Below are positions 1 to 7,586 of a stretch of 64,000 bases of DNA, in pieces. Source of the stretch: Alphaproteobacteria bacterium (GTDB lineage Bacteria > Pseudomonadota > Alphaproteobacteria > Caulobacterales > Parvularculaceae); assembly GCA_030433215.1 (NCBI GenBank), contig JAUIMC010000010.1, positions 62,001-126,000 of the forward strand. Reading direction: 5' to 3'. Position 1 is the stretch's first letter, and the number at the start of each line of letters is the position of its first letter. Under the pieces are notes generated by a model. The model was not told where the DNA came from and did no database searches. It saw only the letters and a program-made list of their open reading frames with translations. The position numbers and the translations under genes were made by a program.

Positions 1-292
1 TGGCCTCGAGCGTGATCTCGGCTTGCGGCTCGAAGCCCCACAGGCGGTCGCAAGTTTCGATGACGCTTTCGATGACGGGCAGCGGCGCCAGCGAGGGCGT
101 GCCGCCGCCGAAATAAAGGCTTGTCAGTTTCCGGTCCTGCGTTCGTTCAGCATAGCGTTCGAGATCGCGGGTCAGCGCGGTCGTCCACGCGCCCGCGTCG
201 GCGGGACGGTTCTTATAGACGTTGAAATCGCAATAGGGGCAGATGCGGGCGCAATAAGGCCAGTGAACATAGACCCCGAGGGGCTTGCTCAT
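1..292 (-). CDS. hemW: HemW-like radical SAM protein (oxygen-independent coproporphyrinogen III oxidase-like), truncated by window edge
   Basis: Minus-strand translation from ATG at 292: MSKPLGVYVHWPYCARICPYCDFNVYKNR...LTSLYFGGGTPSL; CxxxCxxC radical SAM motif. Absent from the ORF track because it runs off the window. Confidence 0.93.
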   Translation of the reverse strand, partial: MSKPLGVYVHWPYCARICPYCDFNVYKNRPADAGAWTTALTRDLERYAERTQDRKLTSLYFGGGTPSLAPLPVIESVIETCDRLWGFEPQAEITLEA

Positions 293-1044
293 TGCTTTGC
301 GGCCGCTGCTTCGGCGAGGCCGATGGTGTGATCCAGAAGCGCGCGCCCGCCCATGGGCCCGTGGCTCGGGATGACGATCTCGGCTTCCGGAAAGGCTTCC
401 GCGACATTGCGCGCAGCCTCGGCCCAATGGCCGACATCGCCGTCGGCGGTGTTGCCGAGATTGCCGCTGTCGCCGGGGCGGATCAGGCAGCCGCCGAACA
501 GCACCTTCGCCGGCGCGTAATAGACGACGATATTGTCGCGCGTATGGCCGGCGCCAGGATAAAAGACTTCAAGCGGCACGCCGGAATAGCCGGCGAAGAC
601 AAGCTGTTTGCCTTTTTCCGAAATGTACATGGGAACTTGCGCAGGCGTCAGGCCGCGCACCGGCGCGTCTTCATTTGAAAAGCGGTGCGCGGCGGTTTCA
701 ACGCCATGCGCATGCAGGGCTTTCATGCCGCCCATCTTGTCGTCATGGGCGTGGGTGACGATGGCCTTGACCGGCATGGCGCCGGTTTCTTCCTCGATCA
801 GCGCCAACAGTTTTTCCGTATCCGCATCGGTCCAGGCGGTGTCGACGAGAACGACGCCGGTGTCGACTTTGACGACCAGCCCCTGCGACAGGACAAGGCC
901 CCAGCCGTCCACATGGCGCCAGCTTTTGTGAACCCAGACATCCTCGGCGATCTTTTCGAGAACGGGGGCTTGCTGTCCTTCTTCAGCGGCGCGCGCGGGC
1001 GCGGCGGCGAAAACCAGAAACGCGGCGAGAAAAAACTTCCACAT
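289..1044 (-). CDS. Subclass B1 metallo-beta-lactamase with signal peptide
   Basis: THAHDDKMGG (H116/H118/D120), PGAGHTRDN (H196), FGGCLI (C221) and IPSHG (H263) motifs in B1 order; N-terminal [19 protein letters not shown] signal peptide; stop overlaps hemW start (ATGA). Confidence 0.88.
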   Translation of the reverse strand: MWKFFLAAFLVFAAAPARAAEEGQQAPVLEKIAEDVWVHKSWRHVDGWGLVLSQGLVVKVDTGVVLVDTAWTDADTEKLLALIEEETGAMPVKAIVTHAHDDKMGGMKALHAHGVETAAHRFSNEDAPVRGLTPAQVPMYISEKGKQLVFAGYSGVPLEVFYPGAGHTRDNIVVYYAPAKVLFGGCLIRPGDSGNLGNTADGDVGHWAEAARNVAEAFPEAEIVIPSHGPMGGRALLDHTIGLAEAAAAKQ

Positions 1045-1652
1045 CAAAAATGCGCTTTCATCAGTTTACGGAAGGCGTCGGCCCGGTGAGAGATCGCATG
1101 CTTCTCCTCCGGCTCCATCTGCCCAAAGGTGATATGATAGCCGTCGGGCGTGAAGATGGGATCATAGCCGAAGCCTTTTTCGCCGCGCCCCGGAAAGACG
1201 AGGACGCCCGTCACCTCGCCCTCGAAGGTTTCGGTGTGGCCGTCGGGCCAGGCGAGGGTGAGGGCGCAGACAAAGCGGGCGGAGAAATCCTCCGTGCCGG
1301 TGTCGAAAACCGCCGTCTCGACCTTTTTCATGGCCAGCCCGAAATCCCGGGGCTCGCCGGCCCAGCGCGCGGAGAAAATCCCCGGCGCCCCCGCGAGCGC
1401 GGTCACCGAAAGCCCTGAATCGTCTGCGAGGGCGGGGAGCCCGGAGGCCTTCGCGGCGGCCAGCGCCTTCAATTCGGCGTTCTCGGCGAAGGTCGTTCCG
1501 GTCTCTTCGGGGTCGGAAAGCCCCAGGTCCTTCGCGGAGATCGCCTCGACCCCAAGTGGGGATAGTAAATCATTGATTTCTCTTACTTTTCCATCGTTAT
1601 GCGAGGCGATGACCAGCCGTCCCGGCCCTAATTTGCGCATCGTTTCGCTCAT
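1044..1652 (-). CDS. rdgB: dITP/XTP pyrophosphatase (RdgB/HAM1)
   Basis: [51 protein letters not shown]; start chosen at MSETMRKL rather than the longer ORF. Confidence 0.95.
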
Positions 1653-1662
1653 GGTTTTATCC

Positions 1663-1735
1663 CTTATCGAAAAAAAATTATCGTTTTTCGGCAAAAAAGA
1701 CTTGCATCGTTTTTCGATAAGTGTATATCGATAAT
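1663..1735. promoter_or_regulatory. Putative operator region: 12-bp perfect inverted repeat plus repeated ATCGTTTTTCG / TATCGATAA motifs
   Basis: CTTATCGAAAAA (1663-1674) and TTTTTCGATAAG (1710-1721) are perfect reverse complements; ATCGTTTTTCG occurs at 1680-1690 and 1706-1716; TATCGATAA at 1726-1734; plus-strand TTGCAT-N16-TATATC at 1702-1729. Confidence 0.6.
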
Positions 1736-1975
1736 CAACAAGACGGCGATCAGCGCCGCACCCGAAAAACCGCAAAGGCTCCATAGCAGCCGACGGGATT
1801 AAAGGAAAAGGGCCGGGAAAAAGGCCCGCGCCAAAAACTGAAAAGGGCAAGGCCGCCCCTCTCGAAACCCTCCGGGGCCCCGAGGAAAAAGGCCGAAAAA
1901 AAGAGCGGCAGGAAGAACCTGACCGCTCAAGAAGATCAAACGAGCCGCTAACACAGGAAAGAAAAGGAGAAACCC

Positions 1976-2365: not shown

Positions 2366-2860
2366 ATGAAAGCGATAGGCAAAGGCTCGCTCGCCTCCAT
2401 TCTCGCCATGGGGCTGCATTTCACGCGCGTCATCATGTGGATCGCTTTTGTCGGCGTCAGCATCGCGCTGATTATTCTGCCGTTCTTTTCCACGCTGGCG
2501 AGTCTTTTCGGGGAATCCCTGGATGTCAGCAAGGAAGACTTTTTCAATGTGGCGCTCACCTTCACGACGATCGCGGTGATGTTGTTCGTGGTGAACCGGC
2601 TTCTTGAAATTCTCAAAACGCTGCGCTTCGGCTCGCCTTTCGTGAAGGAGAACGCCGACCGGTTTCGCGGCCTCGGCTATGCGCTCCTGATCGGGGAAGG
2701 GGCGAAAGTCGCTTTCGGTTTGCTGTCGCTCATTTTCGATGTGGATGTGGCCGGCAATTCCTCTTTTATCGCCTGGATCGCGATCATTGCGGTTTTTGTC
2801 CTGGCGGAAGTTTTCCGCGAGGGCGCGCGCATGAAGGAAGAACAGGATCTCACTGTATAA
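2366..2860 (+). CDS. DUF2975 family membrane protein
   Basis: Four hydrophobic segments, LRFGSPFVKENADRFRGLGYALL motif, immediately followed by a small XRE regulator. Confidence 0.8.
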   Translation: MKAIGKGSLASILAMGLHFTRVIMWIAFVGVSIALIILPFFSTLASLFGESLDVSKEDFFNVALTFTTIAVMLFVVNRLLEILKTLRFGSPFVKENADRFRGLGYALLIGEGAKVAFGLLSLIFDVDVAGNSSFIAWIAIIAVFVLAEVFREGARMKEEQDLTV

Positions 2861-3084
2861 TGTCGATTTCGGTCAAACTCGATCGTGTGCTTCTCGACCG
2901 CGGCATGTCGCTGACGGAGCTTTCCGAGCGCGTCGGGGTGACCATCGCCAATCTCTCGATCCTCAAGACCGGCAAGGCCAAGGCCATCCGCTTTTCGACG
3001 CTCGAGGCGATCTGCAAGGAGCTCGACTGCCAGCCGGGCGACATTCTTTTCTTCGACGACGACGGCGCTCCCTCTCCCGACTGA
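2860..3084 (+). CDS. XRE/YozG-type helix-turn-helix regulator
   Basis: LDRVLLDRGMSLTELSERVGVTIANLSILKTGKAKAIRFSTLEAICKELDCQPGDIL; overlaps DUF2975 stop. Confidence 0.9.
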   Translation: MSISVKLDRVLLDRGMSLTELSERVGVTIANLSILKTGKAKAIRFSTLEAICKELDCQPGDILFFDDDGAPSPD

Positions 3085-5159: not shown

Positions 5160-7586
5160 ATGAAAAGAGTACTCATCGCCTTTTTCAGCGCGGCCTCGGC
5201 GGGCGCCGCCGCCGCGCAGGATGTCTGCACGCCGGCCGGCTGGACTTATCCGGTGACGGAACAACAAGAGCGCGCCGTCATTCTCGGCCGCGACTTCGCC
5301 GACGGCCGCCACCCGCCGCGCCCTCATTATTCCACCTATTCCAACTTCAAGGATCTGCTGGCGACGCTGGGGCTGGGCGCGTTGTGGCCGGACGCGCCCC
5401 GGTACGGCGGCGCGCAGTGCACCGGCTATTCGACAAACATTCTTCTCGACCGGGCGCGCGAGCTCGGGCCCGATCATCCCTATCTCGCCGCGCTCGCCGA
5501 GGTGCAGGTGAAACTGGTGCGCGCCTGCACGCACCGGTCCGAGCCGATCGGCGCCCTGACGGAGTTCTGGCGCGGCGCAGCCGATCCTGACGGCCGGCTT
5601 GATGTCATCGGCAGGCAGGACCTCGCTTATCTTTCTGCGATCCGGGATTTCCATGCGCGCCGGTTTGCTGAAGCGCGCGAGGGTTTCGCCGCAGTCGCGG
5701 CGGACGCCGCCTCGCCCCATCGCGACGCCGGTCGTCTGATGGAAATCCGCGCCCTGCGCGAGATGAAGGAAGACCGCGCCGCCCACGCCCTCGTCAAAGG
5801 CTACGCCAGGCAAGCGCAAGGCCGGTTCAAGGAATGGCTCGACCAGCAGGAAGACCTGATCGCGCGCAAGTCCGACATTCCCGAATTTCGCGCCGCGCAC
5901 TTGGAAAAGGTTTTCCGCCGAACCTACGGGCTGCCGATTGAGGGCGAGCCGGCCGGGTTCCGGCGCGAACAGGCCGCTTACGATCTCGAGACCTATTTTC
6001 TCTATGAGCACGACCGCCAGCGCCGCTTTGCGCCGAGCGTCATGCCCGCCGACTGGTGGCTGCACAAGGAGACGCCGGCCGGCTCCACGGCGTTTGCGGC
6101 CGTGCAGGCGGCGGCGAAGACATATGACGACATCGACTGGATCGTCGCCCGCCATGCGAGTCGCGCCTTTGCGCGCGACAATAGCTGGTTCGCGGGCCCC
6201 GATTTCGACATCGCCGACCCTGCCTATCAGCGTGTGACCGACCACGCCTACGCCAAGTGGAAGGGCGAAGGCCGCGTCCGCTGGGCGGCGATCGTCGCCG
6301 CGCGGATTGACGAGACATCGCCCTATGCGCCAGACATCATCGCGTTCATCAGCGACATGCAAGAGCGCGCGCAGACCTGCGGCCTCTCTGTCTCCGAATA
6401 CGCTGTCTATTCGTCGGCCTTTCGCGACGCCGTGCGCCTGGCCGCCGCCGGCGGGGATTACGATACGGCGTTCACGCTGATGAAGCAGGCCTTTCAGAAC
6501 AGATTTTATCCGTATACGCTCGATGAACACAGCGTGCGCCGGGCGTTCGTCAATCTGTTGATGATCCGGGGCGATTATGACGCCATGCGCCGTTTCCAAA
6601 CGGAGATCGGCAATGATTCCGCCCTCGATCTGTGGTTGGCGCAAACGCCCGAAGAGCTCGTGAAATACGGCCAGAACCGCCTTCTCGAATTCGCCAATAT
6701 GCTCGATGAGGAAGCGATCCTCGGCCTTATGGCGCTCAAGGATGAGCATGGGCGCAACCTTCTTTCCCGGCAAAACGAGATGGATTTCGCCCGCATCCTG
6801 TGGACGCGGGGCTATGTGTTTCACGATGCGGCGCTCATGACGCGGACAGAGCCGATAGTGCGGGCGCGCTATCCTCAGTTGAAGCCCTATTTCCGGCATG
6901 CGGAGGCCGCGAAATCCGAAACGGCGCGCCGGCGCATTTTCACCCATATGATCCTGAAATATCCGGGCCTGTCGCCGTTCGCCTATGTGGGCTCGCACAA
7001 GCGCCGCAACGATCTCGCGACGGTTCTCGGCAAGGACCCCATCGAGGGCAACTGGTGGTGTTCGGGCGAGGACCGCGCGCGCGTTCAGGACGATGAAGAC
7101 GCGCTGGCGGACGCGTTTTTTCGTTGGCGGTTTGATTATCAAGCGCCGGTTGAGCGTTATGCAGCGGGGCGGCGCTACCGCATGTACCCGCCGGCGGCGG
7201 ACAGCGACGAGCGCCGGATGATCGAGGCGGCGTGGCGGCGCTTCCGCGCGGACTATCCGCCCTTCGCCATGATCAGTGAACAAACGCAGAAGCGTCTCGC
7301 CGCCCTGCCGCGCGCCTCCGCTTATCTCTGGGACGAAGTGCGCGGCTGGGCGAGAAGCCCCGCCGGCTACGCCGACTGGGCGTTGCAGCGCGACGACCGC
7401 CTGCCTGAAAGCCTGCACCGGGTCGTTTTCACTACGCGCGTCTCCTGCCACTTGCTGGAAGAAGGCAACAAGGAGACATCGCGGGGCGCCTATGTGATGC
7501 TGCACCGGCGCTATGGCGGCGCGTTCTGGGCGGCGCAAACGCCCTACTGGTTCGATAATTTCGGGTACGGGGCGCGGCGGCGCTAG
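5160..7586 (+). CDS. Large secreted protein of unknown function, predicted all-alpha/TPR-like
   Basis: 808 aa, signal peptide MKRVLIAFFSAASAGAAAAQD; aromatic-rich globular composition; the antisense 817-aa ORF is Arg-rich and artefactual. Confidence 0.8.
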   Translation: MKRVLIAFFSAASAGAAAAQDVCTPAGWTYPVTEQQERAVILGRDFADGRHPPRPHYSTYSNFKDLLATLGLGALWPDAPRYGGAQCTGYSTNILLDRARELGPDHPYLAALAEVQVKLVRACTHRSEPIGALTEFWRGAADPDGRLDVIGRQDLAYLSAIRDFHARRFAEAREGFAAVAADAASPHRDAGRLMEIRALREMKEDRAAHALVKGYARQAQGRFKEWLDQQEDLIARKSDIPEFRAAHLEKVFRRTYGLPIEGEPAGFRREQAAYDLETYFLYEHDRQRRFAPSVMPADWWLHKETPAGSTAFAAVQAAAKTYDDIDWIVARHASRAFARDNSWFAGPDFDIADPAYQRVTDHAYAKWKGEGRVRWAAIVAARIDETSPYAPDIIAFISDMQERAQTCGLSVSEYAVYSSAFRDAVRLAAAGGDYDTAFTLMKQAFQNRFYPYTLDEHSVRRAFVNLLMIRGDYDAMRRFQTEIGNDSALDLWLAQTPEELVKYGQNRLLEFANMLDEEAILGLMALKDEHGRNLLSRQNEMDFARILWTRGYVFHDAALMTRTEPIVRARYPQLKPYFRHAEAAKSETARRRIFTHMILKYPGLSPFAYVGSHKRRNDLATVLGKDPIEGNWWCSGEDRARVQDDEDALADAFFRWRFDYQAPVERYAAGRRYRMYPPAADSDERRMIEAAWRRFRADYPPFAMISEQTQKRLAALPRASAYLWDEVRGWARSPAGYADWALQRDDRLPESLHRVVFTTRVSCHLLEEGNKETSRGAYVMLHRRYGGAFWAAQTPYWFDNFGYGARRR

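Follow-up and report, generated by a model that had tools for sequence, protein, structure and literature searches.

Described relatives and the rdgB-bla-hemW locus

ElBla2 of Erythrobacter litoralis HTCC 2594 is a biochemically proven subclass B1 metallo-beta-lactamase, encoded on the chromosome, that raises carbapenem MICs and gives carbapenem resistance in E. coli (PMC5770381; MBL structure 6v73). Nitrocefin is not cleaved by ElBla2. Its gene lies away from mobile elements, and the flanking genes are conserved in relatives that do not carry it. Other described enzymes of this kind are FIM-1 of Pseudomonas aeruginosa (6v3q), the Hirschia baltica MBL (HBA; 6v54, 6v5m), which comes from the same order as the organism studied here, and NDM-1, a mobile lipoprotein. 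Berglund et al. 2017 placed NDM and FIM in a B1-1 group together with alpha- and deltaproteobacterial chromosomal genes, and, of 21 predicted B1 genes put to the test, reported imipenem hydrolysis for 18, the other 3 being inactive (PMC5637372). Parvularcula, Hyphomonas and Caulobacter are not mentioned in the main text of that study.

Here we describe a gene, bla, that is related to the ElBla2 gene (PMC5770381) and, like it, is chromosomal, without mobile elements among the neighbors examined and flanked by genes that are conserved where it is absent. It lies in a stretch of 64,000 nucleotides (the window). Among named organisms Hyphococcus luteus SY-3-19 (Parvularculaceae), formerly Marinicaulis flavus, is the closest to its host and carries an 86% identical copy of bla. 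With a probability of about 0.83, in our estimate, bla encodes a chromosomal, exported di-zinc B1 enzyme that hydrolyses beta-lactams, is intrinsic to its lineage and is co-expressed with rdgB and hemW. The kind of enzyme is already known; its fixed address in the rdgB-hemW operon is the unusual point. The features discussed are the following.

1..292, minus strand: N-terminal part of hemW, radical SAM haem chaperone (TIGR00539 and Radical_SAM matches on the fragment)
289..1044, minus strand: bla, subclass B1 metallo-beta-lactamase ORF, 251 aa (NF033088, solved relatives, AlphaFold model)
361..363, minus strand: zinc ligand H263 (residue 228, SHG motif; alignment)
487..489, minus strand: zinc ligand C221 (residue 186, GGC motif; alignment)
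544..546, minus strand: zinc ligand H196 (residue 167; alignment)
739..753, minus strand: HAHDD motif with zinc ligands H116, H118 and D120 (residues 98-102; invariant alignment columns, positions counted from the ATG at 1044)
1044..1652, minus strand: rdgB, XTP/dITP diphosphatase (Ham1p_like 204 bits; TIGR00042 165 bits, cut-off 145)
1657..1744, minus strand: conserved non-coding element of 88 nt that contains repeats of ATCGAAAAACGAT and immediately precedes rdgB (conservation over 23 genus genomes)

The bla frame runs from its ATG at 1044-1042 to its TGA at 291-289 (251 codons). It has one base in common with the rdgB stop at 1046-1044 (TGATG), and its own stop overlaps the hemW start at 292-290 by 4 nt (ATGA); the remainder of hemW precedes the window, and the complete ORF, completed from the genome, has 373 aa. 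An earlier reading of this DNA, made from the sequence only, had proposed an intact B1 gene within the rdgB-hemW operon, overlapping both neighbors and with no mobile element nearby; the strand, which that reading left unstated, is minus. The uninterrupted frame and the curated models for bla and both flanking genes bear this out, the two overlaps are exact, and no transposase, integrase or cassette structure was present among the near neighbors of bla examined. Because the reading frames overlap, we infer co-translation of bla from rdgB. According to this mechanism bla would share a transcript with rdgB and hemW, its translation would depend on stop-start coupling to rdgB, and the protein would consequently be made constitutively or under the controls of the operon. 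Resistance genes are not usually lodged in housekeeping operons, and this counts against our explanation.

Family, zinc ligands and predicted fold

The bla protein scored 234.2 bits against the curated subclass B1 model NF033088 (cut-off 200), and the E-value of 1.3e-69 excludes a chance match. Residues H98, H100, D102, H167, C186 and H228 correspond to BBL positions H116, H118, D120, H196, C221 and H263, of which H116, H118 and H196 are the Zn1 ligands and D120, C221 and H263 the Zn2 ligands. The alignments thus agree with the earlier reading in that all six B1 ligands are there in the right order, and they are invariant among NDM-1, VIM-1, IMP-1 and the 13 copies that lie between rdgB and hemW in the genus and its neighboring genus. 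D84 is also kept, as are R224, N233 and W87, which place the substrate in B1 enzymes. The N-terminus displays a hydrophobic stretch ending in ARA (approximately residues 1-19), which by eye resembles a Sec-type signal peptide.

None of the cut-offs of the named allele families (FIM, NDM, AFM, VIM, IMP) was reached, the nearest being FIM with 195.6 against 590 bits, and by the 70% clustering rule that PMC5637372 applies, the bla protein would count as a family of its own. By sequence, the closest solved structures are those of FIM-1 (best), the Erythrobacter enzyme, the Hirschia baltica enzyme and NDM, all of them B1 beta-lactamases. The AlphaFold model (pLDDT 88.5) adopts the alpha-beta/beta-alpha MBL fold; its best match is the Hirschia baltica MBL, followed by FIM-1, the Erythrobacter MBL and NDM (TM ~0.9, normalised to the target), and among the matches listed the top 50 in the PDB are B1 enzymes. 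FIM-1 has R224 and the GGCLIRP...LGNTAD stretch in common with bla, but identity is only 44% and the FIM family cut-off is far from reached. Identity to the Hirschia enzyme is 43%; HBA, whose sequence equals that of genome G133 over the aligned region, has a lipobox and sits elsewhere than between rdgB and hemW. The Erythrobacter litoralis MBL is ~44% identical to bla in the fold match. NDM-1 (~42%) shares with bla the B1 ligand set, a deep clade and the THAHxDKMGGM motif.

In a 50-row tree, which had no B2/B3 outgroup and no BcII, CcrA or SPM references, bla grouped with its own genus and one neighboring genus (support 97/93). This clade adjoins, with support of 93/82, a group made up of NDM, FIM, Hirschia-type enzymes and the Erythrobacter enzyme; VIM and IMP lie elsewhere in the tree. 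The clade that holds NDM and FIM gains with it a coherent set of chromosomal B1 enzymes. A position outside the B1 enzymes, named beforehand as the outcome that would speak against a B1 beta-lactamase, was thus not observed in this tree without B2/B3 sequences. The Erythrobacter structure sequence pairs with NDM-1, on another branch than bla.

Beta-lactam hydrolysis by the bla protein is likely, since the substrate-placing residues are kept and published relatives work; judged from its sequence, bla is very probably a working zinc-dependent beta-lactamase of the NDM/FIM type. The enzyme would be loaded with zinc and would hydrolyze beta-lactams, most likely including carbapenems, in the periplasm as an intrinsic enzyme of the lineage, and a resistance phenotype would be expected to follow. 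It could instead be hypothesized that bla is a B1-fold hydrolase whose native substrate is something other than a beta-lactam (e.g. a cell-wall or lactone metabolite), beta-lactamase activity being a side reaction. The location in a housekeeping operon, with coupled codons and maintenance by selection, would fit such a role, and the host bacteria are not known to meet the drugs. However, the protein passes the B1 equivalog model and not merely the superfamily model, R224 and N233 are retained, and over half of the genomes in the genus have kept rdgB and hemW but lack bla. We therefore regard a non-beta-lactam hydrolase as unlikely.

For the three closest pairs of bla genes dN/dS was 0.12-0.20, which shows that the protein sequence is under purifying selection. 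This bears on whether bla is decaying or inactive, as its repeated loss within the genus and the B1-like homologues without ligands elsewhere in the order might suggest. Against this stand the intact frame, the full set of ligands and a dN/dS well below 1, and we give a decaying gene hardly any credence compared with a working beta-lactamase.

The ligand-less homologues were observed in another family of the order: G212 carries H116A/H118T/C221G/H263N, G273 H116N/H118Q/C221G and G350 H196Y/C221S. With zinc ligands lost in some of the more distant B1-like homologues, at least some relatives cannot be active enzymes, and this, like the 3 inactive genes of PMC5637372, counts against our explanation; the three homologues possibly form a non-catalytic or rewired branch.

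Gain, loss and probable exchange at the rdgB-hemW junction

A B1 gene of the window clade was found in 12 of 28 genus genomes, in all 12 between rdgB and hemW, with rdgB/bla overlaps of 1, 4 or 8 nt (plus one 1-nt gap) and bla/hemW overlaps of 4 or 8 nt. The same gene order, with a 76-nt gap before bla, recurs in a second Parvularculaceae genus (G113). In a genome from a different family of the order (G155) a divergent B1 gene occupies the junction. The junction is empty in approximately 10 genus genomes, and in 23/23 further genomes sampled across the order rdgB lies next to hemW on the same strand without bla, mostly within ~50 nt; bla is consequently an insertion into an older operon. A scan of genome contigs brought up only three close relatives. 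In the literature covered, which was incomplete, no relevant description of the rdgB-bla-hemW address, or of a beta-lactamase in the genus or family, was found.

The junction accepts other cargo besides bla. In sister genomes, with genes named by eye, it holds an IS-type transposase (G021), two NUDIX genes (G002) or an AAA ATPase (G020 and G026).

On the rpoB+gyrB species tree the presence and absence of bla requires at least 5 changes. Distances between bla genes correlate with those of core genes (Mantel r 0.45, p 0.004), whereas the species topology is rejected by the bla alignment (p-AU ~0.004), chiefly through one taxon; when a single genome (G003) is moved, the species tree becomes acceptable (p 0.11). 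The G155 gene stands apart on a very long branch in the best tree, but its joining to the genus clade is not rejected by the AU test (p 0.20), so that the rdgB-bla-hemW arrangements of the different families may go back to one origin or to more.

These data also bear on recent horizontal acquisition, with the operon position due to chance. The site is empty order-wide, the cargo of the junction varies in relatives and includes a transposase, and the bla tree differs from the species tree, all of which could be taken in its favor. On the other hand, the copies in the 12 genus genomes and the second genus share the same junction, form one clade and are 47-86% identical to the window gene, their distances track those of core genes, and the near neighbors are without transposase, integrase or cassette structure. 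We consider such a chance arrival highly unlikely, and reject a recent mobile acquisition on the shared synteny and the divergence of the copies. With approximately half of the genus having bla at the same spot, it looks like an old, built-in enzyme.

An ancestral, vertically inherited gene, as the sequence-only reading suggested, does not agree with the 23/23 order-wide genomes without bla, its presence in only 12/28 within the genus, the other cargo in sister genomes and the p-AU of ~0.004. "Purely vertical" is too strong, since loss or replacement of bla is scattered over the genus and the bla and species trees disagree locally. Rather, bla is an old, clade-specific insertion that has since been lost, replaced and, to some extent, exchanged locally; we read its descent as mostly vertical, interrupted by repeated losses and by one or more local exchanges. 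According to our explanation, bla would have arrived between rdgB and hemW early in the history of this part of the family and selection would have kept it in about half of the lineages, with loss or replacement in the others. This patchy presence fits a dispensable function and, as such, counts against our explanation.

The idea of a reservoir for clinical genes fared no better: among 72,556 plasmid records no copy exceeded 43% identity, the best matches being NDM at ~43%. As there is no sign of mobilisation, the gene is of no immediate clinical concern. A single address with empty, occupied and replaced states makes the gain and loss of a carbapenemase-type gene traceable.

Lipidation and the upstream element

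The window protein has no lipobox at its N-terminus, unlike NDM-1. By motif matching, a lipobox-like LxxC was present in 34 of 41 order-level B1 proteins scored, a few non-canonical ones counted; those without it are the window protein, G023, G003, G113, G155, G136 and G204 (the last two from one genus). On the tree, the lipobox is gained or lost at least 4 times. Most of these alphaproteobacterial B1 enzymes thus appear to carry a lipobox, and this distribution suggests that the lipidation of NDM may have been inherited from such enzymes. The pattern bears on an open question, as the origin of NDM's lipidation was called unknown in a 2025 paper (PMC12326980).

A broader reading, which we find doubtful, would have the beta-lactamase settled semi-permanently in a housekeeping operon, with translational coupling to it, and the junction possibly entered more than once by B1 genes; the genus clade and the divergent B1 gene of G155 are candidates for such repeated entries. 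Linked to it is the idea of an ancestral lipoprotein form, of the NDM type, in alphaproteobacterial B1 enzymes, with the window lineage among the few that turned soluble. If true, the operon membership would point to a physiological role connected with how the operon is regulated.

The 88-nt element upstream of rdgB has a mean identity of 89% over 23 genus genomes (window + 22), compared with 70% in the rdgB coding DNA and 47% in the sequence farther upstream, and from this conservation is presumed to be the promoter/operator of the rdgB-bla-hemW operon. It has no match in Rfam. A genome-wide regulon built on the repeat found no support, the 13-mer occurring once in the genome.

In other families single-copy look-alikes such as TTACCGAATAACGATATA were seen ahead of rdgB. 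The window further contains an 808-aa ORF (5160-7586, plus strand) that has a signal-peptide-like start and no Pfam match. Approximately 600 bp beyond the element, on the strand opposite to rdgB, a DUF2975 membrane protein is followed by an HTH_26 regulator (2366-3036, plus strand), and the two are a candidate regulator pair.
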